From Flavobacteriales bacterium (GTDB lineage: Bacteria; Bacteroidota; Bacteroidia; Flavobacteriales_D; Sanyastnellaceae), in contig JAGYJM010000002.1 in NCBI GenBank assembly GCA_018402085.1, positions 2,309,501 through 2,373,500 of the forward strand: 64,000 nt of DNA, in the 5' to 3' direction. A program made the position numbers and the translations under genes. Shown piece by piece: positions 4,282 to 53,634 of the stretch. Position 1 is the first letter of the stretch. Every line of letters begins with the position of its first letter. Below the pieces are notes generated by a model. That model ran no database searches and had not been told where the DNA came from. It saw nothing but the letters and a program-made list of their open reading frames with translations.

Positions 4282-5457
4282 TTAGTCGTCGGCTATAACA
4301 AATTCCCGTCTGAGCACCTCAAAATCAACCCTCCGATTCTGGGCACGCCCCTCGGCCGTGGTATTTTCGGCCACGGGGATTTCACTGCCAAACCACTGCA
4401 ATTCGAGACGCTTGTGATCAATGCCCTTATAATGCAGGTAATTGATCACGGCTCGGGCGCGGTTGGCGCTTAGCTCTTCATTGTAGCCTTCTCTGCCAAC
4501 AATATCGGTGTGACCCTTCACCCGAACAAATAAGAAACGATTCCCTCTCAGAAGATCGGCCACCGCATCTAGCTGAAAGTGGGCCGAATCGGTAAGGGTG
4601 CTGTCATCAAAAGCGAACTGCACCGTTTCAAGTTGAAGCTGCGTATACTCAGAAAGCTGCAGCGGCGGATCGTGCAAAGTCTCTTTGATTTTGTCATTGA
4701 TACAGCTGCACTCGTCACGGGCTTGCACCGGACGCACTACCACGTCATCCACATAAATGTAAGACCAGTTACTCGAAGATGCTCTTCCTTCCAGGGACGT
4801 CCGTCTGAGCTTTGACATCAGGTGATCGGGGTGAAAGTTCCCGATGGTGATGTGATCCTCGCCTCCTTCAGCGATGAAGACATCTGAGAGTTTGACCCAG
4901 TCGTTCACATTATCGAGGATATGCAACCGGGGGTTAACAATCTGCGGATGTGCTTCGATTCGTTTCTCGCCTTTCGGTTTCACTTTTCCTTTTGAAAAAT
5001 GTACACCAAAGCCATCGGTGACATATCGGGCGAGATCTCCGCATGAGACCCAGAATTCTACACAGATCATTTCACCAGCTCCGAGCGGCCGGGATAATTT
5101 GCTCTGCACATATTCACGGTAATTGCGTTTGGTACTGGTGTAAGTTACCAATCCGATGTAAGACTCTCCTTTCAGGGCGTCCTGACTCCCTCCGATGTTC
5201 TCGGGCACACCAGCCTTTCCTTTACTGCAAGTTGCGAAATGATCAGGGGTGGCGCTGCCGGGCTGCGTCCACCCAACGGCCGTTTTCAAGGTCTGCTGGT
5301 TATAGCTGACCGGGCAATATGTGAACTCCTCGAAGCTACCGTTTTTCACCAGGTTTTGTGACATCCCGCGCTTTTGCGCGGTGCAAAACACCAGGCAAAA
5401 AAACAAGGACGCGATGATACGCGCCCTTATTGTTATATCTGTAAAAACGAGATTCAT
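4282..5457 (-). CDS. OmpA-family protein with N-terminal NLVxNGSFEE galactose-binding-like domain
   Basis: N-term NLVKNGSFEEFTYCP...; C-term VKGHTDIVGREGYNEELSANRARAVINYLHYKGI...GRAQNRRVDFEV (OmpA peptidoglycan binding). ORF extends to 5544; start placed at the signal peptide. Confidence 0.8.
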   Translation of the reverse strand: MNLVFTDITIRARIIASLFFCLVFCTAQKRGMSQNLVKNGSFEEFTYCPVSYNQQTLKTAVGWTQPGSATPDHFATCSKGKAGVPENIGGSQDALKGESYIGLVTYTSTKRNYREYVQSKLSRPLGAGEMICVEFWVSCGDLARYVTDGFGVHFSKGKVKPKGEKRIEAHPQIVNPRLHILDNVNDWVKLSDVFIAEGGEDHITIGNFHPDHLMSKLRRTSLEGRASSSNWSYIYVDDVVVRPVQARDECSCINDKIKETLHDPPLQLSEYTQLQLETVQFAFDDSTLTDSAHFQLDAVADLLRGNRFLFVRVKGHTDIVGREGYNEELSANRARAVINYLHYKGIDHKRLELQWFGSEIPVAENTTAEGRAQNRRVDFEVLRREFVIADD

Positions 5458-5527: not shown

Positions 5528-6706
5528 TTACTTGCGAATTTCAAAGACTACGCGTCTGTTTTGCGCCATGCTGAGCGGCGTAGGCCGTGTACTTGCAGGA
5601 TCGGTATTCTCTTTGGTCAGAATGATCAGGCGATCAGCGTTGACACCGGCGGCAACGAGGTATTTGAAGACCGCTTCGGCGCGTTGCTTGCCCATATCGA
5701 GGTATCGGTCATTAATTTTTGACTCATTGAACTCATCGTTGTCGCAATGACCAATGATTTCGAGTTTCCAATCAGGGTTTGCCTGCATCAATTCAGCGAC
5801 TTTATCGAGGTTTTGTTGTCCGACCTGAGTCACATTGGTTTTCAGGAAGGCGTAATACACGGCGCTATTCGAAACGACATCACCGTCGCTCATATTTTCG
5901 TCTTGCACCCGTGCGGCACCGTAGATCAAATCGGGCTCCGTTCTCGCTGAGGGGTCACAACTGCACTGTGATTTGGCATCAATCGGGAATACCTTGATGT
6001 CATCAATGAAGTAGTAAGCGTCATAGACCTGTGATCCGACCGCGCCGCGAGGGCGTTTCATCTTTTCAATTTCCATATTACGGTCACTACCGAAGCAGCC
6101 GATCATCATGTATTTTTCGCGGCCTCCTCCAATCATGGTTCCGCAAACGGTTTCCCACTGATCGCGCGCTTTCATAACCTTATTGCTTCGGTGACGCACG
6201 TCAATATCATTGACATCCTTCACGATGTCACCGGTATTTGGCTGAATGGTTTTACGATCGCTGAAGCTTACGCCAATAAAATTGGTTGCGTATTTCGACA
6301 TATCTGCGAGGCTGATCTTGAACTCTACGCAGTACATCTGGTTTTTCTCGAGTTCATCTTTCAGTTGCACCATCAGATAGGTGCGGTTCAGTTTTTTGTC
6401 TTTGGTGTAGGCTCTGAAACCTGCATAATGGTCTCCGTCAGCGGCATCTTGTTCGCCGTATTCATTTTTCGGAATATTGGTTTTTTCCGATTTCATGTCT
6501 CGGGCAAAGAGGTCTGCCTGTGCTTTAGTCGCAGTGTACCAGTCTTCGCAGAGTTCTTCGAGGTAACCATATTTTTTCAGGCTACGTGTTTCTGCATTTT
6601 CAAAGCTCGGGTTCGGCACGAGGTTTTCCTCTTCTCCATCCTGCGCTTTTGCGCAGAAAACGAAGGCGAAAAATGCCGTAAAAAGAATCAGGGTCTTCGT
6701 ATTCAT
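5528..6706 (-). CDS. OmpA-family protein with N-terminal NLVPNPSFE domain
   Basis: [39 protein letters not shown]...; C-term [34 protein letters not shown]...[10 protein letters not shown]. Confidence 0.8.
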
Positions 6707-7734
6707 CGTTGTTGGTATTCTTTCACTGTTTTTATAAACGTTTTCACTTTCTCCGGATCCATATCCGGATAAACACCGTGGCCCAAGTTAGCAATATGGC
6801 GGGTGCCTCCAAAGCGCTGCAGCATTCGGTTCGTCTGTTCGCGCACCTCATCATGACCGGCATACAACACGCTCGGGTCTAGATTACCCTGCAGGGTTTT
6901 GCCCGCACCCACGGCCTTTCGAGCCTCCAGCGGGTCGACGGTCCAGTCAAGGCCCAGCGTTTCGCAGTTCAGAGATGCGAGGTCTTGAAGGAAATGACCT
7001 CCGCCCTTCGCAAACACCGTCAGGGGCACCTCATCGATGGCATCGCAGATACGCTCCATACAAGGCAGTGCGAACTTCGCGTATAACTCACGGCTCAACA
7101 CACCGGCCCAGCTGTCAAAAACCTGCACAAGGTCTGCGCCCGCTTCAATCTGCGCTTTAAGGTAGGCAATGGTGGCGTCTGTGATCTTATCAAGCAAGCT
7201 TCGTGCCAAAGATTCTTCCTGCCAGAGAAAACGCCTCGCTTTCGACCACTCTTTTGAGCCTTTTCCTTCAACCATGTAGCAGAAAATGGTCCATGGCGCG
7301 CCGGCGAAACCGATCAAAGGCACACGTCCATTCAACTGTTTTTTCGCGATACGAATGGCCTCGATGGTATAGAAAAGGTCTTTTTCAGGTTCCACCTCTT
7401 TCAAGCGGTCTACGTCTGACTGAGCATGAATAACCTGAGGAAACCTCGGCCCCACTTTTTCAACCATTTCATAGGTGAGCCCCATAGCTTCGGGTATCAC
7501 GAGGATATCAGAAAAGATGATGGCAGCATCCACGTCAAGCAAGTCAACCGGTTGAATGGTCACTTCTGCCGCCTTCTCCGGTGTCTCAACGAGTTCTTTG
7601 AAGCCGCTCAACTCCGCACGTACTGCGCGGTATTCAGGAAGAATACGTCCGGCCTGACGCATGAGCCATACAGGAGGACGTTCAGTTTCTTCGCCACGGG
7701 CGGCGCGCAGGAGGAGGTCATTACGGAGTTCCAT
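6703..7734 (-). CDS. hemE: Uroporphyrinogen decarboxylase
   Basis: [66 protein letters not shown]. Confidence 0.97.
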
Positions 7735-10427: not shown

Positions 10428-10952
10428 ATGGAATTGACAGAAGTTCTTTCAATCAGCGGTAAACCTGGTCTGTACCGCATGCTCAGCAACAACGGTTCAC
10501 GCCTGATCGTTGAATCAATGGTTGACGGCAAGAAGTTGCCCGTTTCGGCAACTGCGAAAATCAGCAGCCTTGGTGATATCGCCATTTTCACCGTTGAAGA
10601 AGACGTGCCTCTGGCCGATGTTTTCGCGAAAATTCACGACAAAACGGGTGGAACCGCTGCACCAAATCACAAGAGTGATCCCAAGGTGCTGCGCAGCTAC
10701 ATCGATGAATTGCTGGATGACCTCGATCACCAAAGGGTATACGATTCTGATCTGAAAAAGCTGTTTCAGTGGTTCAATATTCTGCTGGCGAACGGATTTT
10801 TTGATGAAGCTGAAGCTTCGGAAGGCGACGCAAAAGCGCCGGATGAAAGTAATGCAGACACTCAAGAAGTCGAAGCTGAAGCTTCGGATGCAGTACAGGC
10901 CGGGGAAGAAGCTCCTGCAGAAGAACAAAAGCAAAAAGATGGCGATAGCTGA
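10428..10952 (+). CDS. DUF5606-like domain protein with acidic C-terminal tail
   Basis: MELTEVLSISGKPGLYRMLSNNGSRLIVESMVDGKKLPVSATAKISSLGDIAIFT; Ala/Glu/Asp-rich tail. Confidence 0.75.
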   Translation: MELTEVLSISGKPGLYRMLSNNGSRLIVESMVDGKKLPVSATAKISSLGDIAIFTVEEDVPLADVFAKIHDKTGGTAAPNHKSDPKVLRSYIDELLDDLDHQRVYDSDLKKLFQWFNILLANGFFDEAEASEGDAKAPDESNADTQEVEAEASDAVQAGEEAPAEEQKQKDGDS

Positions 10953-12651
10953 AAAGAAAGCACGTACCTACCTGCCGGAGCAATTCAAGCTCGAAAGCTG
11001 GGATGACCTGGCAGCATATTTTACCGAACTCAACTCGCGCGAAGTGGCCTCCAAAGAGGCCTTCGTTGCTTTTCTGAAAGACCTCAGCGAACTCGAGGCA
11101 GCGATTTCAGAAAATGCGGGCTGGCGTTACATCCGGATGACGATTAACACGGCAGACGAAGAGGCGGCCAACCGCTACAAAACCTTCGTCACAGAGATTC
11201 AACCGTTGATGGCTCCGGAGGGCGACAAGCTCAACCGCAAGATCAAAGCGCTCTTTGAGCAGTTCCCGATCGATGGTGAGGCCTACCAAATCTACATCCG
11301 CGCGATTCGGAAGTCGATTGAGTTGTACCGCGAGGCCAATATCCCGCTGCAGACCAATATTCAGGAACTAGCGCAAGAGTACAGCGGTATCATCGGCGGA
11401 ATGAGCGTCGAGCTTGACGGACAAACCTACACGCTGCAACAAGCTGCACTCAAACTCAAAGAGACCGACCGCTCAGTGCGTGAGGCCACCTACCGCGCCA
11501 TCAGCGAAGAGCGTCTGTCGAAGAAAGAAGAACTTGAAGCCATCTTTGATCAGATGGTAGAACTGCGTCAGCAAATCGCCGAAAACGCTGATTATCCCAA
11601 CTTCGTTGCGTACAAGTGGGACCAGATGGGGCGCTTCGACTATACACCCGAAGATTGTGAGCGCTTTCATGCATCCATCGCTTCTGCGATGCTGCCCATC
11701 GGCAAAGACATCCTTCAAAAACGACGCGAACGCATGGGCGTCAATGCACTTCGTCCGTGGGACCTCCAGGTTGACCCTGAAGGGCGCAAAGCCATTACGG
11801 CTTTTGAGGGCGAAAGTGAGCTGGTCGATAAATCCATCCGCGCTTTTCAGCGCGTAGATGACCTCTTCGGTGAAACGCTTGAGCAGATGCAACAACGCGG
11901 ACACCTTGACCTCGAATCAAAGAAGGGAAAGGCACCGGGCGGCTACAACTACCCGCTGTACGAAAGCGGACTACCGTTTATTTTCATGAATGCCGTGGGC
12001 AGCCCGCGTGACCTCGTGGTGATGATGCACGAAGGCGGACATGCCGTGCACAGTGTGCTCACTCACCCGCTTGAACTGACCTCGTTCAAAGGTTGCCCGT
12101 CTGAAGTGGCCGAGCTTGCCAGCATGAGTATGGAGCTGATTTCAATGGACCACTGGGAGTTGTTCTTCGAGAATGAAGACGATCTCGTGCGGGCCAAACG
12201 TGAACACCTTGAAGACATCCTGAGCATGCTGCCATGGATTGCGCAAATTGATGCCTTTCAGCACTGGCTGTATCAAAACCCGAAGCACAGTCGCGATGAG
12301 CGCCGTGCTGCCTGGGAAGAGCTTAATAAGCGTTTCGGCACCGGCGAAGTTGATTACAGCGGATTTGAAGATGCGCTCGCCTACAGCTGGCACCGTCAAT
12401 TGCACCTGTTTGAAGTGCCGTTCTATTACATTGAGTACGGAATGGCGCAATTGGGAGCGATTGCCGTGTGGCGCAACTACAAAAACGACCCGGAGAAGGC
12501 CTTGAAAGATTTCAAAGCTGCGCTTGAACTCGGCTACACCCGTTCGATAGGCGACATCTACGCTACAGCGGGCATCCGATTTGATTTTTCTGAAAGCTAC
12601 CTGAAAGAGCTGGCGGCCTTTGTGCAGTCAGAGCTCGATCAGTTGAGCTGA
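10939..12651 (+). CDS. pepF: M3 family oligoendopeptidase F
   Basis: MAIAEKKARTYLPEQFKLESWDDLAAYF...; MHEGGHAVHSVL zinc-binding HExxH-type motif. Confidence 0.92.
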   Translation: MAIAEKKARTYLPEQFKLESWDDLAAYFTELNSREVASKEAFVAFLKDLSELEAAISENAGWRYIRMTINTADEEAANRYKTFVTEIQPLMAPEGDKLNRKIKALFEQFPIDGEAYQIYIRAIRKSIELYREANIPLQTNIQELAQEYSGIIGGMSVELDGQTYTLQQAALKLKETDRSVREATYRAISEERLSKKEELEAIFDQMVELRQQIAENADYPNFVAYKWDQMGRFDYTPEDCERFHASIASAMLPIGKDILQKRRERMGVNALRPWDLQVDPEGRKAITAFEGESELVDKSIRAFQRVDDLFGETLEQMQQRGHLDLESKKGKAPGGYNYPLYESGLPFIFMNAVGSPRDLVVMMHEGGHAVHSVLTHPLELTSFKGCPSEVAELASMSMELISMDHWELFFENEDDLVRAKREHLEDILSMLPWIAQIDAFQHWLYQNPKHSRDERRAAWEELNKRFGTGEVDYSGFEDALAYSWHRQLHLFEVPFYYIEYGMAQLGAIAVWRNYKNDPEKALKDFKAALELGYTRSIGDIYATAGIRFDFSESYLKELAAFVQSELDQLS

Positions 12652-13595
12652 CCTGCGGCGCGACGGAGGCGATCCATCACCGCTGCACCGAGTCCGGCTT
12701 CATCAATCGCCTGCACCAGGATGTGATCTACCTTGTCGTGATCGGCCTTGCGCAGCAGTGCAAACAGCTGTTTGGCATAATCGCGCGCGTCGTTTTCAAG
12801 ATGGTATTTTTCAGCCGCATCGCACGGTTCATAGCCGATGTATGCGGTGCGTCCCTCCTTTTCAAGGTGGTTCTCCGGAAGTTCACCAAGCGGTACGATG
12901 GTCACTTTGGCATTCGGACTGTAATGCCGGTAGCGCGTTCCCGGTGCCCGTTTACGTTGTTCGTCGGTGGGTGATTGCAGATTGGGTATGAAGTTGCGCA
13001 GCTCTTCTTCTGTGACTGCGCCAAAGCGCAGGATGGCAGGGTGCTCGCCGCTCAGATCGAGTACGGTAGATTCCATCCCGATACGCGTCGGTCCGGCATT
13101 GAGGATTGCCGCAATTTCACCGTCAAGGTCTTCAATTACATGCTCCGCCCGGGTTGGACTGGGTCGTCCGCTCTTGTTGGCGCTTGGTGCCGCCAATGGA
13201 AAACCGCAAGCGGCGATGAGCTCCAACGCTACCGGATGTGCGGGCATTCTGACGGCAACGGTGGTAAGTCCGCCGGTACTGGCATCCGGAACGATCGACT
13301 TCTTTTTAAGCACGAGGGTAAGTCCGCCAGGCCAGAATTCAGTCATCAACGTGTGGGCAAGTTCGGGCACCTCTTCAGCGATATCCTCGAGCATTTCAGT
13401 GCTGGCCACATGCAGAATAAGCGGGTTGTCTGAGGGGCGTCCTTTCGCGGCGTAGATCTTCTCAGCAGACCGTGCATCGAGTCCGTTGCCTCCCAATCCG
13501 TAAACCGTCTCCGTGGGAAAAGCCACGAGTTCGCCGCGTTTGAGCAGCTCGGCGGCTTCATCGATTTCATCGGTATGGAGGAGGCGGGTGTGCAT
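12639..13595 (-). CDS. tsaC/sua5: L-threonylcarbamoyladenylate synthase
   Basis: AAELLKRGELVAFPTETVYGLGGNGLDARSAEKIYAAKGRPSDNPLILHV; SANKSGRPSPTRAEHV; KRAPGTRYRHYSPNAKV (Sua5 C-terminal domain). Confidence 0.93.
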   Translation of the reverse strand: MHTRLLHTDEIDEAAELLKRGELVAFPTETVYGLGGNGLDARSAEKIYAAKGRPSDNPLILHVASTEMLEDIAEEVPELAHTLMTEFWPGGLTLVLKKKSIVPDASTGGLTTVAVRMPAHPVALELIAACGFPLAAPSANKSGRPSPTRAEHVIEDLDGEIAAILNAGPTRIGMESTVLDLSGEHPAILRFGAVTEEELRNFIPNLQSPTDEQRKRAPGTRYRHYSPNAKVTIVPLGELPENHLEKEGRTAYIGYEPCDAAEKYHLENDARDYAKQLFALLRKADHDKVDHILVQAIDEAGLGAAVMDRLRRAAGQLN

Positions 13596-15162: not shown

Positions 15163-15332
15163 AATTTTTTATTGATGTATGCTGGTACTGCTCTGCCTAC
15201 ATGACACTCCTATGCCGTTCTGATGTTCGCTCAATTCATCAATCAGCACTCATAAATCCGCAATCGGCAATCATCCCGCGCTTTCGCGCGGTATGCCCTA
15301 CCTTTGTGCGCGAAAACAGAAACCAACGAAGC

Positions 15333-17349: not shown

Positions 17350-18657
17350 TTATTGCTTGACAATACGTGTGGCAACCGAACCTGCTGCCGAGGTAAACTG
17401 CACGATGTAGCTGCCTGCCGGAAGCGTGCGTACATCTACCTGGTCTGCTTTTGTATTCACCCGCTGCTCTACAACGCGACGTCCCGACAGATCGATCACG
17501 GTGACCCATCCGCTGCTTTCGCAGCGAACATTCAACACGTCAGAAACAGGATTTGGGTACACTTCAAATGCGATGCTTTCAGCTTCGCTCACGTTCACCC
17601 CTTCGAAATCAATCAGCTCAGGACGAAACTCCTCGAGCACGAAGCGCATCATATCAGCCTGTTCTTGGGTGAACATGTTCAGACATGCATCCTGGTTGTA
17701 ATCCATATAGTTCTCACCCTGATCCGGGAGGTCGTCGCCGTCTTCTTCACAGGTGTTCAGTTCGAAATCACAGGTAAAGTTATTGGACGCACTGATGTTT
17801 GGGGTGTCGATAAAACCGTCATCGGCACTGCAGCCGTTGAAGAAGGCATCGCCCCAGGTATGGCGCAGACCGAGGTAGTGTCCGACCTCATGGGTTAGGG
17901 TACGTCCGCCTTCGTTGCCTTCAAAATTGTCATCGAGTCCGGCCGGATTGTTGCTACCCACCGTCGTGTAGTGCACAACCACGCCCTGTACATCGTCTTC
18001 AATGGCGTCAAAGGTTCCTTCCCAGTTAGGCACCTCAGGACTCGGCGGATACGCAAAGCCGAAGATCTGACCGAGTCCGCCCGCGATGGTAACGTTACAC
18101 ACCCATATATTCATGTAGTTGGCAGGATCCCATGCATCCGACCCTCCTGTTTCAGAGAATTTGACCTCATCTACGGTAATGTCATTGCTGAAAATGTCAA
18201 ACTCAAAACTTTCGCGATCGGTTTCCACGCGGTTGATGCCATCGGTGGGGTTGCCCTCCGGGTCAACTGTCGCAAGCACAAACTCGATCTCGGTATCTGC
18301 GGCCACGTCGAGAAATTCTTCGCGGGTGTTCACGGCATCGGGATTGAGGCGGCGGTAATCCTGGTTGAGGATCTCCATCTGGTTGAGGATGACTGAATCA
18401 GGAACATTCTGTTCATCCGTATTCCAGACGACATGAAATACGACCGGCACTTCATACACGGTGCTTGCACGATCGCTCCGCTCGCGCATCCCGCGCAGGG
18501 CATTGTGGTAGTGTTCCGTACATTGTGATTGGAAACCGGGGTTGCGTTCGGCGAGTTTTTGCAGGGCAATGTCGAAACCGCAATAGATGGCATCCTGCGC
18601 TTTTGCGCAGAAAGAAAAAGCAAAAATCACGCTGAATAGAGGCAACAAACGAGTCAT
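17350..18657 (-). CDS. M43-family zinc metalloprotease with T9SS type A sorting domain
   Basis: MTRLLPLFSVIFAFSFCAKAQDA signal peptide; GRTLTHEVGHYLGLRHTWGD (HExxHxxGxxH); C-term FEVYPNPVSDVLNV...LPAGSYIVQF. Confidence 0.92.
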   Translation of the reverse strand: MTRLLPLFSVIFAFSFCAKAQDAIYCGFDIALQKLAERNPGFQSQCTEHYHNALRGMRERSDRASTVYEVPVVFHVVWNTDEQNVPDSVILNQMEILNQDYRRLNPDAVNTREEFLDVAADTEIEFVLATVDPEGNPTDGINRVETDRESFEFDIFSNDITVDEVKFSETGGSDAWDPANYMNIWVCNVTIAGGLGQIFGFAYPPSPEVPNWEGTFDAIEDDVQGVVVHYTTVGSNNPAGLDDNFEGNEGGRTLTHEVGHYLGLRHTWGDAFFNGCSADDGFIDTPNISASNNFTCDFELNTCEEDGDDLPDQGENYMDYNQDACLNMFTQEQADMMRFVLEEFRPELIDFEGVNVSEAESIAFEVYPNPVSDVLNVRCESSGWVTVIDLSGRRVVEQRVNTKADQVDVRTLPAGSYIVQFTSAAGSVATRIVKQ

Positions 18658-23815: not shown

Positions 23816-24406
23816 ATGTTAGAAACGCTTGAACGCTGGGATCAGCAGCTTTTTCTTTTCCTGAATGGTCTCAACGCAGAAGCGTTGGATGGCGTCATGT
23901 TCGTGCTCACCAAAGGTTGGTTCTGGATACCGGTATTTGCCTTCCTCCTCTTCAAACTCTGGAAGAAGTACCCCTCACCCAGGCGATACGGTGCGGTGAT
24001 CCTCTCGGTTGCCCTTACCGTAACTGCCTGCGATATGATCTCTACGCGTGCGCTGAAACAACAGGTGAAACGCTATCGTCCGACCCATCATCTGGAAATC
24101 GGTCAGCAAGTTCACACGGTCACCGATTTCAACGGCAACGAATACCGGGGCGGGAAGTTCGGCTTTGTCTCTTCACATGCCGCCAACTTTTTCGGTATCG
24201 CCACGCTAAGCTTTCTCCTCCTTGGAGATGGTAAGCGCTGGTACTGGCTCTTTGGCTGGGCCGCACTCGTGGCTTACACTCGCATTTACCTTGGGGTGCA
24301 TTACCCTTCTGATCTCATTGCGGGCGGACTACTCGGCGTCATCTGCGGGATCCTTTTCGCGCGTTTTGCAAGGGTGTTGCACCGCTTAATTCCGACGTAT
24401 GCTTAA
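23816..24406 (+). CDS. PAP2-superfamily phosphatase
   Basis: KQQVKRYRP...SSHAANFFGIATL...YTRIYLGVHYPSDLIAG (tripartite PAP2 signature). Confidence 0.9.
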   Translation: MLETLERWDQQLFLFLNGLNAEALDGVMFVLTKGWFWIPVFAFLLFKLWKKYPSPRRYGAVILSVALTVTACDMISTRALKQQVKRYRPTHHLEIGQQVHTVTDFNGNEYRGGKFGFVSSHAANFFGIATLSFLLLGDGKRWYWLFGWAALVAYTRIYLGVHYPSDLIAGGLLGVICGILFARFARVLHRLIPTYA

Positions 24407-26538: not shown

Positions 26539-28254
26539 ATGCCTGAAGAAACCATCCGGTACACCCTTTCCGCTGAGCATACACACCGGCAGATGCTCGA
26601 TTTGCATGCGGTATTTCCAACCGCGCAGAAAGACCACCTCGAGTTGCAGCTCCCCTCCTGGCGTCCGGGCCGCTACCAGCTGGGCAACTTCGCCCAAAAC
26701 ATCCAGCGCTTTTGCGCTGAAAAAACAGACGGCACACCCCTGCCCTGCCGTAAAGTGAGCAAAGATCGCTGGAAGATCGACTGCAAAGGCGAGAGCGAAG
26801 TGGTGGTGCGCTACAATTACCACGCGGCCGAATTGAACGCCGGCTCTACCTGGGTAGATGACCGTCAGGTATACGTGAACCCGGTGAACTGTTTTCTGTA
26901 CATCCCGCAACGCCCAGAACTTGGATATCGTATTGAGCTGAACGTACCTGCGCATTACCAGGTAGCAACCGGAATGCCCAAAGAGAGCGACCATGTGCTG
27001 CTTGCGCGCGACGTGCAGCACGTGATGGATTCGCCGTTTATCACCGCTGATGCACTCTGGCATTGCGATTACGAGGTCGAAGGCAAGACTTATCACATCT
27101 GGATCAACGGACGGCATCGCTTTACTGAAGAGCAGTTGATCAGCGATTTCAAGCCCTTTACAGAAGTCATGGTGAAGCGCTTTGGAAGCATCCCCTGTGA
27201 CGAATACCACTTTATGTTCCAGTTTCCGGATCACGACACGCGCCACGGGGTGGAGCATGAGAACTCAACCGTGATCACAATCGGTCCGGCTGAACTGATG
27301 ATGACCCGACACTGGTATGAAGAACTGCTAGGCATCAGCTGCCATGAGTTGTACCATACCTGGAACATTAAGAACATTCGTCCGGCCGACATGATGCCCT
27401 ACGATTTCAGCCGTGAGAATTACTCGCGCCTGGGCTATGTCGCCGAAGGCGTGACCACCTACTACGGCGACCTCTATTTGTTCCGTTCGAAATTCTTTGA
27501 CGAGCCGGCCTATTTCAAACTGCTTGCCGGTCAGATCGATCGCCACCTGCATAATGCGGGGCGCTTCAATCTGAGCGTGGCCGACAGCAGTTTTGACACC
27601 TGGCTTGACGGCTACCAGCCGGGCATTCCGCACCGCAAGGTATCGATCTACACTGAAGGCTGTCTCACTGCCTTCATGACGGATGTGGCCATCCTTGAGC
27701 ATACCAACAGCGAAAAATCGCTGGATGATGTAATGGTCGCGCTGTACGAACAATTCGGTCAAGCCGGAAAGGGATACACCGAAGCTGACTACCACGAAAT
27801 ATGCGAAGCGACCGCAGGCAGTGACCTTCGTGAAATCTTTGACAGCTACATCTACGGAACCGAAGACTATCTGCCGGCGCTGCAGCGCTCGCTTGATCTG
27901 CTCGGACTACAACTGGTGCTCAAGCAAGGCGATACTTTCGGACAAAAAGCCGGAATGAAATACAAAGAAGTCGGCAATGCGATTGAGGTGCTGACCGTTT
28001 GGCCGGGCAGTGCGGCTGACAGCGCAGGACTTTCACCGGGTGACCGCATCACCGCAGTAGAAGGCATTCAGGCAGACAGCTATGTCTCAGCCACCATCGC
28101 GCTCGCTGAGCGTACTGCCATCGAAGTGGATTTCATCCGCCACCGTCAGCGCCGTCAAACGACGGTGCAATTGACTGACGAGCGCTACTACCCGAAAGTG
28201 GAAATCAAGAGAGTAAAAGACACCGCCATGTACAAGGCGTGGAGTCTGCAATAG
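26539..28254 (+). CDS. M61 family metallopeptidase (glycyl aminopeptidase-like) with PDZ domain
   Basis: GISCHELYHTWNIKNIRPADM; C-term GSAADSAGLSPGDRITAVEG. Confidence 0.92.
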   Translation: MPEETIRYTLSAEHTHRQMLDLHAVFPTAQKDHLELQLPSWRPGRYQLGNFAQNIQRFCAEKTDGTPLPCRKVSKDRWKIDCKGESEVVVRYNYHAAELNAGSTWVDDRQVYVNPVNCFLYIPQRPELGYRIELNVPAHYQVATGMPKESDHVLLARDVQHVMDSPFITADALWHCDYEVEGKTYHIWINGRHRFTEEQLISDFKPFTEVMVKRFGSIPCDEYHFMFQFPDHDTRHGVEHENSTVITIGPAELMMTRHWYEELLGISCHELYHTWNIKNIRPADMMPYDFSRENYSRLGYVAEGVTTYYGDLYLFRSKFFDEPAYFKLLAGQIDRHLHNAGRFNLSVADSSFDTWLDGYQPGIPHRKVSIYTEGCLTAFMTDVAILEHTNSEKSLDDVMVALYEQFGQAGKGYTEADYHEICEATAGSDLREIFDSYIYGTEDYLPALQRSLDLLGLQLVLKQGDTFGQKAGMKYKEVGNAIEVLTVWPGSAADSAGLSPGDRITAVEGIQADSYVSATIALAERTAIEVDFIRHRQRRQTTVQLTDERYYPKVEIKRVKDTAMYKAWSLQ

Positions 28255-28359: not shown

Positions 28360-29736
28360 ATGAAGCAATTTCTACTCTCGGTTGGACTGGCCTGCTTGTG
28401 GGTATTGCCGACCCTTGCTCAAATCGGCAGCTACCACAAACCTGCCGAATGGCTTACGCATGAGGCCACCATTCTGCAATGGCCGCACAACAACTTATAT
28501 GGTCCGTGGTACCGCGAAGATGTCAGTCCGACCTTCGTCGCCATGACCCAGGCGCTTTCGCAAAACGAGACCGTCTGGATTCTGGCATATGATTTGGATG
28601 AGTGGGACTTTATTGAAGAAACACTGTTTGATGCCGGAGGTGTAGATTGGGATAACGTTGTGATCTGGAATGTACCCACCGATGACGTCTGGGTGCGTGA
28701 CAATGGTCCGACCTTCGTAGAATATCCGGAAGACAACTGGTATGTTCTCGATTGGGGCTTCAACGGCTGGGGCAACGACACCCCTTACGAACTCTGCGAT
28801 GCGGTTCCTGGGTTGTTTGCTGACTTCTATGGTTACGACTACCTTAACCTGAACGCCATGGTACTCGAAGGTGGTGCCATCGTTCACGATGGCAACGGCA
28901 CCTTGATGGCGACACGCAGCTCGATTGTTCACCCAAGCCGCAATCCGGATCTCACCGAAGAAGAAATCAACGACTACCTGCAGACCTACCTCGGTGTTGA
29001 GCAAATCATCTGGCTCGATGGCGTTTACGGACAAGACATCACCGATCAGCACATAGACGGGTTCATCAAGTTTGCCAATGACAGTACCATCGTAACCATG
29101 AACGAAGCTGACCTCGCCTACTGGCTGGTCGATGCCGATGACCGCGCGCTCATATCCAACGCCCAGAACCTTGAAGGCGAACCTTACAACATCGTCACCC
29201 TGCCGCTCACCGCTGAAAATGTGGTGACTACGTATGATCTCAACCTCGGATACAAAGGTTCATACTGCAATTACTACATCGCCAACGAGTTGGTCATCGT
29301 TCCTACCTACGATGATGTGAACGACCAGATCGCCATTGACATCTTGCAAGAAGTGCATCCTGACCGCGAGGTCATCGGCGTGGATGTTCGCAACCTCTAT
29401 GCTTATGGCGGCATGATTGCCTGCGTGACGAAAGAGATTCCCGAAGGGGTCGTTCCACTTACTGTTTTCGAAGCAGAAGCTTCGGATGCGATGTTGGGCG
29501 CTCCTTACCCAAACCCTGCTGTGAGCGGCACCACCTTCGCACTGAGCGCTCCCCTGCCGGAGTCTGCGGTACTTGAAGTGCATGATACCCGCGGACGTTC
29601 TGTGCGGCGGTTAGTGGTTTCAGCCGGTTCAAATCACATTCTGCTTGACCTGAGCGACGTGGCGACGGGTGTGTATCACTGTACCCTTCGATCCCCGAAG
29701 CGAAACTACGGCATGCAGAAGCTTGTGAATGAGTAA
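28360..29736 (+). CDS. Secreted agmatine deiminase/peptidylarginine deiminase-family protein with T9SS CTD
   Basis: MKQFLLSVGLACLWVLPTLAQIGSYHKPAEWLTHEATILQWPHN; VPTDDVWVRDNGPTF; C-term LGAPYPNPAVSGTTFALSAPLPES...GVYHCTL. Confidence 0.88.
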   Translation: MKQFLLSVGLACLWVLPTLAQIGSYHKPAEWLTHEATILQWPHNNLYGPWYREDVSPTFVAMTQALSQNETVWILAYDLDEWDFIEETLFDAGGVDWDNVVIWNVPTDDVWVRDNGPTFVEYPEDNWYVLDWGFNGWGNDTPYELCDAVPGLFADFYGYDYLNLNAMVLEGGAIVHDGNGTLMATRSSIVHPSRNPDLTEEEINDYLQTYLGVEQIIWLDGVYGQDITDQHIDGFIKFANDSTIVTMNEADLAYWLVDADDRALISNAQNLEGEPYNIVTLPLTAENVVTTYDLNLGYKGSYCNYYIANELVIVPTYDDVNDQIAIDILQEVHPDREVIGVDVRNLYAYGGMIACVTKEIPEGVVPLTVFEAEASDAMLGAPYPNPAVSGTTFALSAPLPESAVLEVHDTRGRSVRRLVVSAGSNHILLDLSDVATGVYHCTLRSPKRNYGMQKLVNE

Positions 29737-31203: not shown

Positions 31204-34200
31204 ATGCAGAACAAGAGTGCTGTACTGCTCTTCACAATTGCGCTAGCCTTAGCGACGCTCTACATTCTTTCATTCAATGTAGTAGCCAATCGTTTTGAAG
31301 CACAAGCGGATGAGCAGGGTCGTTTCATTGCAGATTCCCTGCTGCAGGAAGGGGCCATTACCGAAGCCGAGTTTGACTCCGTTGCCACCGCAGAGGCACG
31401 CGAATTTCTTCGCGACTCTGCCAACAAGGAGATCTATCCGGTATTCGGCCACACCTATAAGAAGGTGAAAGAGAACGAGCTGAACCTCGGTCTTGACCTT
31501 CAAGGTGGAATGAGTGTGACCCTTGAGGTCTCTATTCCAGACCTGATCGTTGCCCTCAGTGACTACTCTCAAAACGAGAAATTCCTGAACGCGATTGCCC
31601 AGGCGCGTGAAATGCAGAAGAGCGATAACCGCGACTATGTTTCACTTTTTGAAGAAGCATGGAGCGATCAGAAAGCCGGTGATGATGTGCTCTGGCGCCT
31701 CTTCAACAACATGGAGAATAAAGACCTCTTTCCGGCAGAAAGCACGGATGAAGAGATCATTGAAATCCTTCGCCGCGAAGCAGAAACGGCCATTACCAAC
31801 ACTGAAAACATCATCCGTAAAAGGATTGACCAGTTTGGCGTTGCCCAGCCGAATGTGCAGAAAATGCAGTTCAGCGGACGTATCCTTGTGGAGCTGCCTG
31901 GAGTAGACGACCGCGAACGGGTGCGCACGCAGCTCAAGTCGACCGCTAACCTCGAATTCTGGGAAACCTTCAACAATGACGAGGTATTTCAGCAACTTAG
32001 TGCGGCAAATGACGCCATAGCGCAATCGCTTTACCCGGAGGTCTTTGAAGAAGACGCCGCAGAAGCGGCGGATGATGATGCAGAGGATGCCGACGCAGAG
32101 AATGCTCAAAACGATGACCTTGAAGAGGCACTGGAAGACACCCTCGACATGGAAGAAGCTGAAGCTGACACCACCGAAGAGATGTCTGAAGAAGAGCGTC
32201 GCAAGCGTGCACCACTCTTCGCACTGATGCAGCCACAACTGCAACAGAAAAGCCCGGTCGTAGGCTACGCCCTCGTTACCGATACATCTGATTTCAACGA
32301 GCTTATGGCTCGCCCGGAAGCCCTTGAAGCCCTCGGACCTAACCTTCATCTCATGTGGGAGGCCAAACCACAGGCCAACGTCGCGGCGCTTTATGCCATT
32401 CGAGATGATAGCGGCAAAGGGAAATCAAAGCTTGACGGACGTAACATTGTAGACGCACAAGTAGGCTATGATCAAATCGGCGATGTGGTGGTGAACATGA
32501 CCATGGATGCTGAAGGAACAACCGCTTGGGCGCGTATGACCGAAGAAGCTGCGGCTGACGGTCAACGACCGATTGCAGTGGTGCTTGACAATATGGTATA
32601 TTCTGCCCCGAGTGTGCGCACTGCCATTACCAACGGTCGATCTGAGATTTCTCTCGGCTCAGGCCGTTCTGCAGAACAAAAATTTGAAGAAGCCAATGAC
32701 CTTGCGAGCCTCCTGAAGGCAGGGTCATTGCCCGCTCCTGCGCGTATTGTTGACGAAGTAAGTATTGGACCTGAGCTCGGACAAGAAAACATCAATGCGG
32801 GTCTCATGTCGTTTGCGATTGCACTCTTTGTGATCCTGGTGTACATGATCTTCTATTATAAAGGAGCAGGACTAATCTCTGACATTGCCCTACTTGCCAA
32901 CCTGTTCTTCCTGATTGGTGCACTTGCATCACTCGGTGCAGCGTTGACACTTCCGGGTATTGCCGGTATCGTGCTTACCATCGGTATGGCTGTTGACGCG
33001 AACGTACTGATCTATGAGCGAATCCGTGAAGAAATGCGCAACGGCAAAGGCATGCAACTGGCCATTAAAGAAGGTTATGCAAAAGCCTACTCGGCGATCA
33101 TCGATGCCAACCTGACCACCCTCTTCACCGCAATCGTTCTGTACTCTTTCGGTTCAGGTCCGATTCGCGGTTTCGCCACCACATTGATCATCGGTATCTT
33201 CACTTCGCTGTTCTCTGCGATTGTGCTCACCCGTCTGATTTTCTTCTCCCGCATGGAGGGTAAGAAATCGCTGTCGTTCTACACGAACATGACCAAAGAC
33301 TGGTTCACGAACATGTCGATCGACTTTATTGGCAAGCGTCGTATATTCTATATCGTTTCAGGTATTGTGGTTGTAGGGGGTATCGCTTCTCTTGCCACCA
33401 AGAGTCTTGACTACGGCATTGAGTTCACCGGAGGTACCACTTTCGACGTGAGCTTCGTTGAACCCATAGACGTGCAGGCTGTTCGTGAGTATACTGCGGA
33501 AGCCTTCACAGAAGACGGTCAACGAGGAAACCCGAAGGTGCAAACCAAAGAAAGTGACGCACAACTGCGCATCATGACCAACTTCATGAAAAGCAGTGAC
33601 GATCCTGCCGTTGATGAGAAAATCAATGAGGCGCTGAAGTCTGCACTCGCTAAAACAGGCGTAGATTACACCATCGACCGCTACAATAAGGTCGACTCAA
33701 CGATTTCTGACGACTTCCGGAGGGGCGCCAGCTATGCAACGGTATTTTCACTGTTGGTGATCTTCCTCTACCTGGTATTCCGTTTCCGTAAGTGGCAATT
33801 CGGACTGGGAGCACTCATCGCGATGGCGCACGATGTGATCATCGTGTTGTCGCTCTTCTCGATCTTCTATGGCATCCTACCGTTCACCATGGAGATTGAT
33901 CAGGCCTTCATCGCGGCCATTCTGACGGTGATCGGTTATTCAATTAACGATACCGTAGTGGTATTTGACCGTATACGCGAGTACCTCGGTCTCTACGGTA
34001 AAAAGCACGACGCAAAGTCTATCGTCAATGATGCAATCAACAGCACTCTTGGCCGTACCGTAAACACCTCACTTTCGACTTTTGTGGTACTTCTCACGAT
34101 CTTCATCCTGGGAGGTGACAACATCAAAGGATTTGTATTTGCGCTAATGGTTGGTGTAGTAGTAGGTACCTACTCTTCAATCTTTATAGCGACTCCGGCC

Positions 34201-35627: not shown

Positions 35628-36190
35628 ACGGATCGCTCATCATCGATAAAGGTCTATCGAAGGTCCGCTACATCCGGGGCTTTTGCCACGAAATGGACAT
35701 TGACAAACTGATCGGGGGTATCTCGTGGAGGCAGAATCGAATTCGTGTTTTCGGAAAAGAATACGATGAGCCAAGACTGACGGCGTGGTTTGGTCCGCCC
35801 TACACCTATTCAAATATCTCCTGGCCTCAGGCTGACTTCCCTCAGGTGTTGGAACCTATTAAAGAGAAGCTGATACAGACTGCGGGCTTCCCCTTCAACT
35901 CTGTATTGTTAAACCTCTATCGCGATGGCAACGACGCCATGGGCTGGCACCGTGACAATGAGCGTGAAATGGATACCTCATTGATTGCCTCCGTGAGCTT
36001 TGGTGTGACCCGCGCATTTCGCATCCGCCGTTTTCACGGCGAAAAAAAAGAAGGGAAAACCATTGAACTTGAACACGGATCACTGCTGCTGATGGAGCAT
36101 ATGCAGGAGCGCTACGAACACTGCGTACCGAGGCGAAAGCGGATAGACGAGCCACGACTCAACCTGACCTTCAGAAGAATCATCGCATAA
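35624..36190 (+). CDS. AlkB-like 2-oxoglutarate-dependent dioxygenase
   Basis: FNSVLLNLYRDGNDAMGWHRDNEREMDTSLIASVSFGVTRAFRIR...HGSLLLMEHMQERYEHCVPRRK. Start overlaps the preceding stop (ATGA). Confidence 0.93.
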   Translation: MNGSLIIDKGLSKVRYIRGFCHEMDIDKLIGGISWRQNRIRVFGKEYDEPRLTAWFGPPYTYSNISWPQADFPQVLEPIKEKLIQTAGFPFNSVLLNLYRDGNDAMGWHRDNEREMDTSLIASVSFGVTRAFRIRRFHGEKKEGKTIELEHGSLLLMEHMQERYEHCVPRRKRIDEPRLNLTFRRIIA

Positions 36191-37770: not shown

Positions 37771-38089
37771 GGTTGGTGGTTCGTAGTTGGTGGTTGGTGG
37801 TTGGTCAGAAGAGGTAAACAAATGAACTATCCCTATTCCATGATAGGAGGCGTCACACGCCTCCTCCCTTTCCGATGGGATCCCAGCAGAGAGGGATGCG
37901 CGACGCGCATCCGTTATGTTGAACGACGATTCTCGGAATGGGCGCACACTGCAGTGTGTGCCGGCATCATCAAACCGGCTGCAATAGCCGCCGCCACACT
38001 GTAGACACCAATTTGATAAAGCAGCGCAAGTATGCGCTGCACTCCTAACCCGAGACAAACCACCAACCACCAACTACGAACCACCAACC
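37771..38089. mobile_element. Putative MITE-like element: perfect 32-bp inverted repeats enclosing hairpins
   Basis: 37771-37802 GGTTGGTGGTTCGTAGTTGGTGGTTGGTGGTT; 38058-38089 is its exact reverse complement. Interior carries GGAGGCGTCACACGCCTCC, GGATGCGCGACGCGCATCC, CACACTGCAGTGTG and GCAGCGCAAGTATGCGCTGC. Confidence 0.6.
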
Positions 38090-39232: not shown

Positions 39233-39940
39233 TTGTGCATTATGAATTATGCATTCTACATTCATTTGCTGGCCTTTTCTCTTTTTCAGGCGCTAAGTGC
39301 CCCGGCACAACATGTCACCAAGGCCGAGTTGTTGGGTCAGTTCGATCCGTCGGAGCACCCGGATTTTGTGAAGATCGATGCAGCTTACACCACAAAGTCT
39401 GACATCTACATGCGCAGGGAGGCCTATGCGGCTTTTGAGTTGATGTACGCCGCAGCAGCGGCGGATGGTATTCACCTGAAGATCATCAGTGCTACTCGAA
39501 ATTTTGACTACCAGAAAGGCATCTGGGAGCGGAAATGGGGTCGCACCCGATATATGGGTTGGGCTGACTTCGCAAAAGCGAAGGATATTTTGACGTACAG
39601 CTCGATGCCGGGCAGCTCACGCCACCATTGGGGAACCGACATCGATCTCAATGCACTCAGTAACGACTGGTTCTCAACCGGAGAAGGAAAGCAAATCTAC
39701 GACTGGCTCACAGAAAACGGTCCTTCATTCGGATTCTGGCAGGTATACACGCCAAAGGATGACGGTCGTCTTGGCTACAATGAAGAGAAATGGCACTGGT
39801 CATACCTGCCCCTCGCAACCTCCTACCTGCAGACCTATAACGATTCAGTGCAAGCGGTTGACATCCGCCGCTTTCGCGGCGCAGAACTGGCAGACAGCCT
39901 CAGAATCATTAGCGACTATGTAAACGGTATTGAACGTTAG
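39233..39940 (+). CDS. M15-family D-alanyl-D-alanine carboxypeptidase-like protein
   Basis: IKIISATRNFDYQKGIWERKWG; SSRHHWGTDIDL; YNEEKWHWSYLPLA (VanY-like). Start 39233 or 39242. Confidence 0.87.
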   Translation: MCIMNYAFYIHLLAFSLFQALSAPAQHVTKAELLGQFDPSEHPDFVKIDAAYTTKSDIYMRREAYAAFELMYAAAAADGIHLKIISATRNFDYQKGIWERKWGRTRYMGWADFAKAKDILTYSSMPGSSRHHWGTDIDLNALSNDWFSTGEGKQIYDWLTENGPSFGFWQVYTPKDDGRLGYNEEKWHWSYLPLATSYLQTYNDSVQAVDIRRFRGAELADSLRIISDYVNGIER

Positions 39941-46600: not shown

Positions 46601-46675
46601 TTGACCTGCTGCCAGAAATGGCAGGATGGCTATCAGGTTAAAAAGCAAATTCCGAATCATTGTCAAGGTTTTCAA
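43604..46675 (-). CDS. M1 family metallopeptidase
   Basis: GGMEYPNITVIGNVG; TVIVHEVGHNWFYGILGSNERTNAWMDEGINSFNE (HExxH-18-E). Confidence 0.94.
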   Translation of the reverse strand: MKTLTMIRNLLFNLIAILPFLAAGQTSDGYFQQRVNYQIDVVLDDERHELMGNIGIEYINNSPDELPFIWMHLWPNAYSGPNTALAKQQFRDGKMLLFYAMDKQKGGIDSLDFSVNNQKVKWEFHPEHPDIAKITLNEPLRPGGVIVIRTPFRVDLPSGSISRLGHIGQSYQITQWYPKPAVYDQDGWHEMPYLNQGEFYSEFGSYDVSITVPENYVVGATGDLLGCPQEEAFLDSLAEATAANIDGLDTEAAFPPSSSRKKTLRYTQDNVHDFAWFADKRWHVLKGEVELPGSKRKVTTWAMFTPRNAKYWKRAIEYLNDGTYYYSLWNGDYPYKHVTAVDGTISAGGGMEYPNITVIGNVGNDLSLETVIVHEVGHNWFYGILGSNERTNAWMDEGINSFNETRYFTTKYDSLELLEGMLPDGLRSLIGLDGKPYEDLDELTYLISARLHLDQPMQCHSDEYLPINYGTIVYKKTAAAFEYLKAYLGEVRFDNAMQAYFNEWKFRHPGPKDLRKVLERETGEDLLWFFEDLVQTANHVDYAIRSVKKKDGVYKVRLENEGDIPGPVQVVGFRDGEAVTSQWIKGGRQFESVFANFNADDIDAFQIDPKRNMLEYDRKNNYSKTKGLFKKLEPLQIRPVSGFEDPAFTQLFVTPVAAWNNQDRWMLGANIHNTTLPPRDWEFSLTPMYSFASERLTGFGRTSFYRGPMEVHLTSQTFRYDDSGINELDYWRNELEVWHHFNKVPNSPWESSLWVDFVHLRFWNNAVPAALSAQDPVIVGAQNREQFIPSVGYLAEREGIFVDHAFSAGARYAIDNVQSEAALIYARYDGEWKYDRKKHTLNWRVFGGFTDQFGDLNFPLTGYGVGPATDVFVDHLLLSRGFESQFTGSEGANNSLLQRQMTDTYGSIRAPFVANSWMASALVEWELPIKLPFSLFAGAALYDEQRLSIPDSGIPVVEVATEFSYSAGVTIPLLADVLEVHVPLLNERLYTGNPRDFTIPELIMFEFHIDRLNPWKLIRNIEF

Positions 46676-46758: not shown

Positions 46759-47028
46759 ATGGAGCACAAGAAATTCACGGTGAAAGGTAAGGTACAGGGA
46801 GTATGGTTTCGCAAGCACACGCTTGAAAAAGCTAACGAACTCGGCTTGAAAGGAACGGTTCGCAATATGGATGACGGCTCAGTGGTGGCTTTCGCTCAAG
46901 GCAGCGCAGAAGCGCTGGATGCGTTCAGTGCGTGGCTTTGGCAGGGCTCCCCGAAGTCAGAGGTTACCGATGTCATCGCAGAAGAACGTGAACCGGAAGA
47001 TTATGATGGATTTGAAATCATTCGGTAA
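46759..47028 (+). CDS. acyP: Acylphosphatase
   Basis: MEHKKFTVKGKVQGVWFRKHTLEKANELGLKGTVRNMDDGSVVAFAQGS. Confidence 0.93.
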   Translation: MEHKKFTVKGKVQGVWFRKHTLEKANELGLKGTVRNMDDGSVVAFAQGSAEALDAFSAWLWQGSPKSEVTDVIAEEREPEDYDGFEIIR

Positions 47029-47038
47029 TCCCTCGTGT

Positions 47039-47834
47039 CAGGAGAATCACCGTTTACACGGAGAGGGACGCCAACTTGGCGTCCGGGAATGTTCGGGTCA
47101 CGTCAATCACCGTTTACACGGATAGGGACGCCAACCCGGTGTCCGTGAATGTTCGCGTCACGGCAATCACCGTTTACACGGATAGGGACGCCAACCTGGC
47201 GTCCGGGAATGTTCGCGTCACGAGAATCACCGTTTACACGGATAGGGACGCCATCCTGGCGTCCGGGAATGTTCGCGTCACGTCAATCACCGTTAACACG
47301 GATAGGGACGCCAACCTGGCGTCCGGGAATGTTCGCGTCACGGCAATCACCGTTTACACGGATAGGGACGCCAACCTGGCGTCCGGGAATGTTCGCGTCA
47401 CGGCAATCACCGTTTACACGGATAGGGACGCCAACCTGGCGTCCGTGAATGTTCGCGTCACGAGAATCACCGTTTACACGGATAGGGACGCCAACCTGGC
47501 GTCCGTGAATGTTCGCGTCACGGCAATCACCGTTTACACGGATAGGGACGCCAACCTGGCGTCCGGGAATGTTCGGGTCACGGCAATCACCGTTTACACG
47601 GATAGGGACGCCAACCTGGCGTCCGGGAATGTTCGCGTCACGAGAATCACCGTTTACACGGAGAGGGACGCCATCCTGGCGTCCGGGAATGTTCGCGTCA
47701 CGTCAATCACCGTTAACACGGATAGGGACGCCAACCTGGCGTCCGGGAATGTTCGCGTCACGAGAATCACCGTTTACACGGATAGGGACGGCCTCCCAGC
47801 CGTCCGTGAATGTTCGGGTTACCCGAATCGCTGT
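47039..47834. repeat. 60-bp tandem repeat array A (13 hairpin-bearing units)
   Basis: Unit ~GATAGGGACGCCAACCTGGCGTCCGGGAATGTTCGCGTCACGNNAATCACCGTTTACACG at exact 60-bp spacing, starting just after the acyP stop. Confidence 0.98.
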
Positions 47835-51584: not shown

Positions 51585-53634
51585 TCGATAGGGACGCCAA
51601 CCTGGCGTCCGTGAATGTTCGCGTCACGAGTATCGCCGTTTACACGGATAGGGACGCCAACCTGGCGTCCGTGAATGTTCGCGTCACGAGAATCACCGTT
51701 AACGCGGATAGGGACGCCAACCTGGCGTCCGTGAATGTTCGGGTCACGGCAATCACCGTTTACACGGATAGGGACGCCAACCTGGCGTCCGTGAATGTTC
51801 GGGTCACATCAATCACCGTTAACGCGGATAGGGACGCCATCCTGGCGTCCGTGAATGTTCGGGTCACGGCAATCACCGTTTACACGGATAGGGACGCCAT
51901 CCTGGCGTCCGTGAATGTTCGCGTCACGAGAATCACCGTTAACGCGGATAGGGACGCCAACCCGGTGTCCGGGAATGTTCGGGTCACGTCAATCACCGTT
52001 TACACGGATAGGGACGCCATCCTGGCGTCCGTGAATGTTCGCGTCACGTCAATCACCGTTTACACGGATAGGGACGCCAACCTGGCGTCCGTGAATGTTC
52101 GGGTCACGTCAATCACCGTTTACACGGATAGGGACGCCAACCTGGCGTCCGGGAATGTTCGGTTCACCAGAATCACCGTTTACACGGATAGGGACGCCAT
52201 CCTGGCGTCCGGGAATGTTCGCGTCACGTCAATCACCGTTTACACGGATAGGGACGCCATCCTGGCGTCCGTGAATGTTCGGGTCACGGCAATCACCGTT
52301 TACACGGATAGGGACGCCAACCTGGCGTCCGGGAATATTCGGTTCACCAGAATCACCGTTTACACGGATAGGGACGCCAACCCGGTGTCCGTGAATGTTC
52401 GCGTCACGTCAATCACCGTTTACACGGATAGGGACGCCATCCTGGCGTCCGGGAATTTCCGGACTACGAGAATCACCGTTTACACGGATAGGGACGCCAA
52501 CCTGGCGTCCGGGAATGTTCGGGTCACGAGAATCACCGTTTACACGGATAGGGACGCCATCCTGGCGTCCGTGAATGTTCGCGTCACGGCAATCACCGTT
52601 TACACGGATAGGGACGCCAACCTGGCGTCCGGGAATGTTCGGGTAACGGCAATCACCGTTTACACGGATAGGGACGCCAACCTGGCGTCCGTGAATGTTC
52701 GGGTCACGGCAATCACCGTTTACACGGATAGGGACGCCATCCTGGCGTCCGTGAATGTTCGCGTCACGAGAATCACCGTTAACGCGGATAGGGACGCCAA
52801 CCCGGTGTCCGGGAATGTTCGGGTCACGTCAATCACCGTTTACACGGATAGGGACGCCATCCTGGCGTCCGTGAATGTTCGCGTCACGTCAATCACCGTT
52901 TACACGGATAGGGACGCCAACCTGGCGTCCGTGAATGTTCGGGTCACGTCAATCACCGTTTACACGGATAGGGACGCCAACCTGGCGTCCGGGAATGTTC
53001 GGGTCACGGCAATCACCGTTTACACGGATAGGGACGCCATCCTGGCGTCCGGGAATGTTCGCGTCACGTCAATCACCGTTTACACGGATAGGGACGCCAT
53101 CCTGGCGTCCGTGAATGTTCGGGTCACGGCAATCACCGTTTACACGGATAGGGACGCCAACCTGGCGTCCGGGAATATTCGGTTCACCAGAATCACCGTT
53201 TACACGGATAGGGACGCCAACCCGGTGTCCGTGAATGTTCGCGTCACGTCAATCACCGTTTACACGGATAGGGACGCCATCCTGGCGTCCGGGAATGTTC
53301 GGGTCACGAGTATCGCCGTTTACACGGATAGGGACGCCATCCTGGCGTCCGGGAATGTTCGGGTCACGAGAATCACCGTTTACACGGATAGGGACGCCAA
53401 CCTGGCGTCCGTGAATGTTCGGGTCACGGGTATCGCCGTTTACACGGAGAGGGACGGCAACCTGGCGTCCGAGAATGTTCGGGTCACGGCAATCACCGTT
53501 TACACGGATAGGGACGCCATCCTGGCGTCCGTGAATGTTCGGGTCACGAGAATCACCGTTTACACGGATAGGGACGCCATCCTGGCGTCCGGGAATGTTC
53601 GGGTTACCCGAATCGCTGTTAACGCGGATTCGCA
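51585..53634. repeat. 60-bp tandem repeat array B (34 hairpin-bearing units)
   Basis: Same unit as array A at exact 60-bp spacing, starting immediately after the terminator. Confidence 0.98.

Follow-up and report, generated by a model that had tools for sequence, protein, structure and literature searches.

A lineage-specific, shape-defined DNA hairpin family in a Flavobacteriales genome and its possible role as a single-stranded-DNA signal

Known Chi sites, the control sites of RecBCD/AddAB-type helicase-nucleases, are short and linear, lack a hairpin, and are usually biased to the leading strand. Rickettsia palindromic elements (RPE; CGTC families) are inserted extra sequence inside protein-coding genes, tolerated in frame, and HIP1 of cyanobacteria is a highly iterated palindrome, a fixed 8-mer tied to methyltransferases and of debated function. 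DNA-uptake signals (DUS/USS) are known at copy numbers that include the range of ∼850. Published uptake sequences are not palindromes; their mismatched forms are over-represented in a graded manner, their orientation is without effect, and their spacing is not even (PMC1939737). REP elements, the tagged palindromes associated with RAYT transposases, comprise GTAG and CGTC families (PMC3733652).

The element that we describe here from a Flavobacteriales bacterium shares features with each of these. Like Chi, it has about one site per 5 kb, many of them genic, a species-specific motif, and recognition, inferred here, on one strand; unlike Chi, it combines a variable stem with a fixed loop and tail, has a specificity of ∼32 bits, far above that of Chi, shows no leading-strand bias, and has no enzyme tied to it. 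It resembles DUS/USS in being over-represented in place, on both strands and at tolerant coding sites, as a lineage-specific dialect, but differs in being a hairpin with even, strand-specific spacing and without a mismatch gradient, in a genome that lacks a type IV pilus ATPase match. The likeness to REP lies in size (a palindrome of 20 to 40 bp), in copy number (in the hundreds, where REP families exceed 100), in the unpaired tetranucleotide tag, and in compensatory stem variants; the family is, however, tagged with GATG/CATC and mostly genic, dimers are not the rule, no insertion signature is seen in genes, the Y1 transposase gene is unflanked, and the stems contain no G-T pairs. As with RPE, palindromic repeats lie within coding genes and are tolerated in frame, but RPE are insertions and the copies here leave length unchanged relative to orthologues. 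As with HIP1, the palindrome is genic and very abundant, but it is the loop that is conserved and the stem sequence that is free. The family departs in part from REP, DUS, and typical Chi alike.

Copies and anatomy of the hairpin element

Within the window, by which we mean the whole 64,000-nucleotide stretch analyzed, an initial annotation had pointed to one palindrome at the signal-peptide ends of four secreted proteins. All four sites are real: TTCTGCGCAAAAGCGCAGGAT occurs exactly three times (6638-6658, 18592-18612, and 58493-58513, all on the minus strand), and the copy at 5362-5381, CCGCGCAAAAGCGCGGGATG, is likewise on the minus strand but lies in another frame and reads ...CTAQKRGMS. 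The count of four was nevertheless too low. A search for GCGCAAAAGCGC allowing up to one mismatch gave 12 window matches against 0.5 expected, a number that none of the shuffles reached, and a strict structural search gave 21 copies, most of them away from signal peptides, on both strands, and in some cases intergenic. These copies and the variant elements of the window are as follows.

481-500, minus: hairpin element CACGCCAAAAGGCGTGGATG, intergenic (strict search)
5362-5381, minus: hairpin element CCGCGCAAAAGCGCGGGATG, the fourth copy of the initial annotation, TAQKRGM near a signal-peptide end
6637-6656, minus: hairpin element at a signal-peptide end (exact match and strict search)
10826-10845, plus: variant element CGACGCAAAAGCGCCGGATG, one stem position unpaired
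11672-11691, minus: hairpin element CATCGCAGAAGCGATGGATG, antisense in a gene (strict search)
11835-11854, minus: hairpin element CGCGCTGAAAAGCGCGGATG, antisense in a gene (strict search)
13016-13035, plus: variant element CTGCGCCAAAGCGCAGGATG, loop CAAA, antisense in a gene
15272-15291, minus: hairpin element CCGCGCGAAAGCGCGGGATG, intergenic (strict search)
17507-17526, minus: hairpin element CGCTGCGAAAGCAGCGGATG, sense in a gene (strict search)
18591-18610, minus: hairpin element CTGCGCAAAAGCGCAGGATG, FCAKAQDA at a signal-peptide end
23872-23891, plus: hairpin element CAACGCAGAAGCGTTGGATG, LNAEALDG close to a gene start, without a signal peptide
26700-26719, minus: hairpin element CAGCGCAAAAGCGCTGGATG, antisense in a gene (strict and mismatch searches)
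27708-27727, plus: hairpin element CAGCGAAAAATCGCTGGATG, sense in a gene (strict search)
29469-29488, plus: hairpin element CGAAGCAGAAGCTTCGGATG, sense in a gene (strict search)
32055-32074, plus: hairpin element CGCCGCAGAAGCGGCGGATG, sense in a gene (strict search)
36022-36041, minus: hairpin element CGCCGTGAAAACGGCGGATG, antisense in a gene (strict search)
39862-39881, minus: hairpin element CGCCGCGAAAGCGGCGGATG, antisense in a gene (strict search)
46609-46628, plus: hairpin element CTGCCAGAAATGGCAGGATG, antisense in a signal peptide (ILPFLAA)
46902-46921, plus: hairpin element CAGCGCAGAAGCGCTGGATG, within an acylphosphatase-like ORF (GSAEALDAF)
54590-54609, minus: hairpin element CGTCGCAGAAGCGACGGATG, inside a GCTD-type 21-residue repeat unit
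54740-54759, minus: hairpin element CGTCGCAGAAGCGACGGATG, in the GCTD-type repeat unit adjacent to that of 54590
56487-56506, plus: hairpin element CCGCGCAGAAGCGCGGGATG, intergenic (strict search)
58492-58511, minus: hairpin element CTGCGCAAAAGCGCAGGATG, FCAKAQDA at a signal-peptide end
61464-61483, minus: variant element CAGCGCAGAAGCGCTGGATT, tail GATT, sense in a gene

The genome comprises 3.775 Mb in two contigs; statistics were taken from three blocks totaling 1.264 Mb, in which the strict search found 267 copies, and genes were called with a simple hexamer gene finder. The unit, C-NNNNN-[RRAA]-N'N'N'N'N'-G-GATG, forms a perfect hairpin of 6 bp whose loop is two purines followed by AA and whose GATG tail is unpaired. 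Among all perfect hairpins in 864 kb and their enriched 3' neighbors, the combination of a 6-bp stem, a 4-nt loop, and GATG occurred in 202 cases, 24-fold above expectation, with loops that were mainly AAAA, AGAA, or GAAA and with C-G as the outermost stem pair in 197. When constraints were placed on the loop-proximal GC pairs, the outer C-G, and GGATG alone, the three free stem pairs matched perfectly at 141 of 146 sites (chance, 1/64) and G·T appeared at none, a pattern that points to DNA and not RNA. Stems vary freely yet pair perfectly, with 60 stem sequences among the 267 strict copies, and a C at position -1, able to lengthen the stem by pairing with the initial G of GATG, is nearly absent (4 of 267). 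Aligned copies show no strongly conserved flank outside the short unit. In intergenic copies a T-tract does occupy positions -4 to -1 and GATG is followed by a weak CGAACA, and because these copies are free of coding constraint, we take both to be part of the signal and not codon effects. Both strands of a model sequence, folded as single-stranded DNA, adopted the expected hairpin, with an energy of about -8 kcal/mol.

Sites with zero, one, two, and three deviations from the unit number 267, 70, 39, and 207, against 0, 2, 27 to 29, and 214 to 253 in the controls (a congener and the reversed genome). The two- and three-deviation classes are therefore close to background, and the clear excess stops at one deviation, mostly at tail positions 3 and 4 or loop position 1. 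The family is almost all-or-none, which implies either strong selection with a threshold or sites that are written whole. In one place (locus L056, ∼7190-7300; G000:C2 near 1907190-1907300), three elements follow one another in tandem every 45 bp; their spacers have diverged and their hairpins are intact, consistent with strong maintenance.

Other repeats were also observed in this DNA. The window holds two arrays of 60-bp tandem units (47066-47744 and 51592-53590), where predicted ORFs may be spurious; most units carry the palindrome GGACGCC-AGGTT/AGGAT-GGCGTCC or its reverse, and the 1.26-Mb sample holds 114 copies of this palindrome. Another, distinct hairpin family, CAGCGCA-NNNN-TGCGCTG with loops AGTA, AGGA, AATA, and ATGA, has 44 copies in the same sample, one of them at window 38022-38039; all are intergenic, which makes it a conventional REP- or terminator-like repeat.

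Distribution among genomes and spacing on each strand

Genome-wide, the pattern CN5RRAAN5GGATG has 895 matches, 445 and 450 per strand, compared with 47 in one congener, 52 in another, and 31 in a control; we estimate the true sites at ∼850. The 14-mer TGCGCAAAAGCGCA has 78 matches genome-wide, and its reversed control has none. The hairpin family is lineage-specific. Searches with a covariance model found it absent from 39 relatives, isolated single matches aside, from 114 genomes of the same family, where one other genome had a single match only, and from all 394 genomes sampled elsewhere in the phylum. The congeners are distant, their AddB-like proteins being 98% identical to each other and 45.5% identical to that of this genome, and a search of one of them (G002) for another hairpin dialect found none. 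A 20-mer with the CTGCGC stem occurs once among 84,980 GTDB species besides its own, as a single copy in a metagenome-assembled stretch, and 10 single matches on viral contigs are taken as chance. GGATG is not over-represented as a restriction site (observed/expected, 1.05). In the literature we found nothing relevant, either on hairpin motifs with even spacing or on uptake sequences in Bacteroidetes.

Along the chromosome, neighboring copies switch strand more often than expected (162 opposite, 102 same). Relative to a uniform expectation, same-strand pairs fall to 0.26-fold at 0.4 to 1 kb, 0.54-fold at 1 to 2 kb, and ∼0.75-fold up to 8 kb, whereas opposite-strand pairs are not depleted (0.96- and 1.07-fold). 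The coefficient of variation of same-strand spacing is 0.72; reassigning strands while positions stay fixed raises it to 0.91 ± 0.05, and no run came as low. The repulsion recurs in five of six block-strand subsets. Spacing is about 9 to 10 kb per strand, or about one site per 5 kb overall, and no leading-strand bias was seen, the strands being nearly equal in the three sampled blocks of either skew. Same-strand repulsion without an opposite-strand effect suggests that the two strands are read independently, and among our observations this spacing is the strongest hint of function, although an indirect one where Chi-like directional action is concerned.

Genic copies and their origin

About 70% of the strict copies (184 of 267) lie wholly within predicted genes, 128 of them sense and 56 antisense, and copy density between genes is about twice the genic density. 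A single frame, C-NNN-GCA-AAA-GCN-NNG-GAT (xAKAxD), accounts for 116 of the 128 sense copies. The association with signal peptides first noticed is genuine but secondary: 26 of the 184 genic copies fall in the opening 60 nt of a gene, against 9 expected, and no other stretch is enriched. The element encodes FCAKAQD in sense or SCAFAQ in antisense, both of which hold AxA, the signal-peptidase motif; signal peptides are hit because either orientation encodes a cleavage site and so is tolerated there. Signal peptides hold a minority of the copies, and a signal-peptide-specific origin is rejected. The earlier suggestion that the DNA and not the cleavage-site residues is under constraint agrees with our results, as the element appears in every frame, in antisense orientation, and in intergenic DNA, and its stems vary freely while staying perfectly complementary. 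Codon usage for AKAQ, named at the outset as what would refute this, does not account for the motif, which is just as strict away from signal peptides and in intergenic DNA. The palindrome looks like a DNA-processing signal, not a secretion feature.

Insertion or recombination, which the initial annotation favored as the source of the copies, was not borne out. Orthologues from congener G002 (n = 57) are gap-free at the site in all but a few cases, with a residue identity of 0.37 inside the site and 0.55 in the flanks and a dip in nucleotide identity that spans about -15 to +35; one example reads ENIDL-DAAKAADV-KVFHSPEGN against ENIDL-AIAESRGI-QVFNSPEGN. Identity within the site is apparently above that of random replacement, suggesting that copies became established at places where comparable residues were already acceptable to the protein. 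A 21-residue repeat family, GCTDxxACN[FY]xxxAxxDDGSC, occurs at 128 places in 1.26 Mb, in long secreted-type proteins (e.g., window 54422-55091), and all 128 GCTD..ACN.. units are exactly 21 residues long with or without the element. Thirteen of them bear it, in the same register and with two different stems, and adjoin units that read DPEATDDDGSC, as does the element-free unit at 54875 that follows the one at 54740. Within these repeats it is the 3' arm that is close to the ancestral sequence, the 5' arm having been altered to pair with it. Together, the gap-free orthologues and equal-length units indicate that the coding copies, to which this result applies, arose by substitution in place at protein-tolerant sites, without lengthening; on the same two lines of evidence, insertion or transposition into genes is ruled out for them.

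A candidate single-stranded-DNA signal and its rivals

We infer that the signal is kept by strong selection or drive. Our leading hypothesis, to which we assign a probability of about 0.4, is that each copy is a site of a lineage-specific single-stranded-DNA recognition signal that works most like a Chi control site. A candidate protein would meet one DNA strand at a time, whether during unwinding or resection at a break, at a replication fork, or on incoming DNA, and this putative reader would recognize the loop, the paired stem, and GATG. It would need no more than one site in several kilobases of each strand, so that a second site nearby on the same strand would not be favored and the other strand would be irrelevant. 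This genome encodes an AddB-like nuclease and lacks RecC, but an AddB-like protein is also present in the congeners without hairpins, so nothing ties AddB to the element. The near absence of intermediate-fit sites also counts against a Chi-like signal, being awkward for slow build-up by point mutation.

Uptake drive, in which preferential import of site-bearing DNA followed by recombination accumulates sites in tolerant places, is the next option, though an unlikely one. It would account for the in-place build-up at tolerant coding and intergenic sites, the about equal strands, and the lineage-specific dialect, and ∼850 copies are within the range of known uptake signals. However, the type IV pilus/type II secretion ATPase family (T2SSE; GspE/PilB/PilT) has no match in this genome (G000), with full-length proteins in both congeners (G001 and G002), any mismatch gradient is absent past one or two deviations, and the spacing is strand-specific. 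Slightly less probable again are REP-like mobile hairpins spread by a RAYT-type Y1 (HUH) transposase, an origin suggested by the size, copy number, tetranucleotide tag beside the hairpin, and compensatory stem variants, together with the one Y1_Tnp gene in the genome; excision of intervening single-stranded DNA could also deplete close same-strand pairs. The genes nevertheless show no insertion signature at the copies, ∼70% of which are genic and not extragenic, and the tag is a 3' GATG (5' CATC on the other strand), neither GTAG nor CGTC. The sole Y1 gene (IS200-like/RAYT-type, 159 aa; L071, G000:C2:1309048-1309395) is not flanked by hairpins, the nearest covariance-model matches lying 1.5 to 2 kb away, which is ordinary at the mean spacing. 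Both congeners and 26 of the 114 family genomes also carry Y1 genes; the hairpin family is confined to this genome.

We consider it improbable, more so than either uptake or mobile hairpins, that mutational writing (template switching, hairpin-templated correction, or similar) generates perfect palindromes and maintains them although the cell gains nothing. Perfect stems of many sequences, the same length before and after, the near absence of mismatched stems, and the GCTD-repeat 5' arm changed to match an ancestral-like 3' arm all fit such a process, but alone it leaves unexplained the fixed 6-bp length, the avoided seventh pair, the RRAA loop, the GATG tail, and the strand-specific spacing. 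An RNA element acting in transcripts, for which the excess of sense over antisense genic copies might be cited, is very improbable: the tolerated frame explains that excess, 56 genic copies are antisense, and intergenic copies between co-directional genes are antisense in 23 cases and sense in 10. The missing G-U pairs and the antisense copies led us to reject an RNA motif.

To our knowledge, no Chi, uptake, or REP family combines definition by shape with in-place origin and strand-specific spacing. We tentatively suggest, with less than even confidence, that the hairpins represent a new class of genome-wide signal, a shape-defined single-stranded-DNA hairpin with loop and tail, overwritten in place at ∼850 mostly coding sites of one lineage, spaced per strand, and read by a putative self-recognition or DNA-processing system. 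A 30-nt single-stranded hairpin, TTTTCTGCGCAAAAGCGCAGGATGCGAACA, would then offer a concrete bait for finding the reader protein. If the Chi-like reading is true, a DNA signal defined by hairpin shape and not by sequence, rather than protein function, would have imposed amino-acid changes on hundreds of conserved proteins in this organism.
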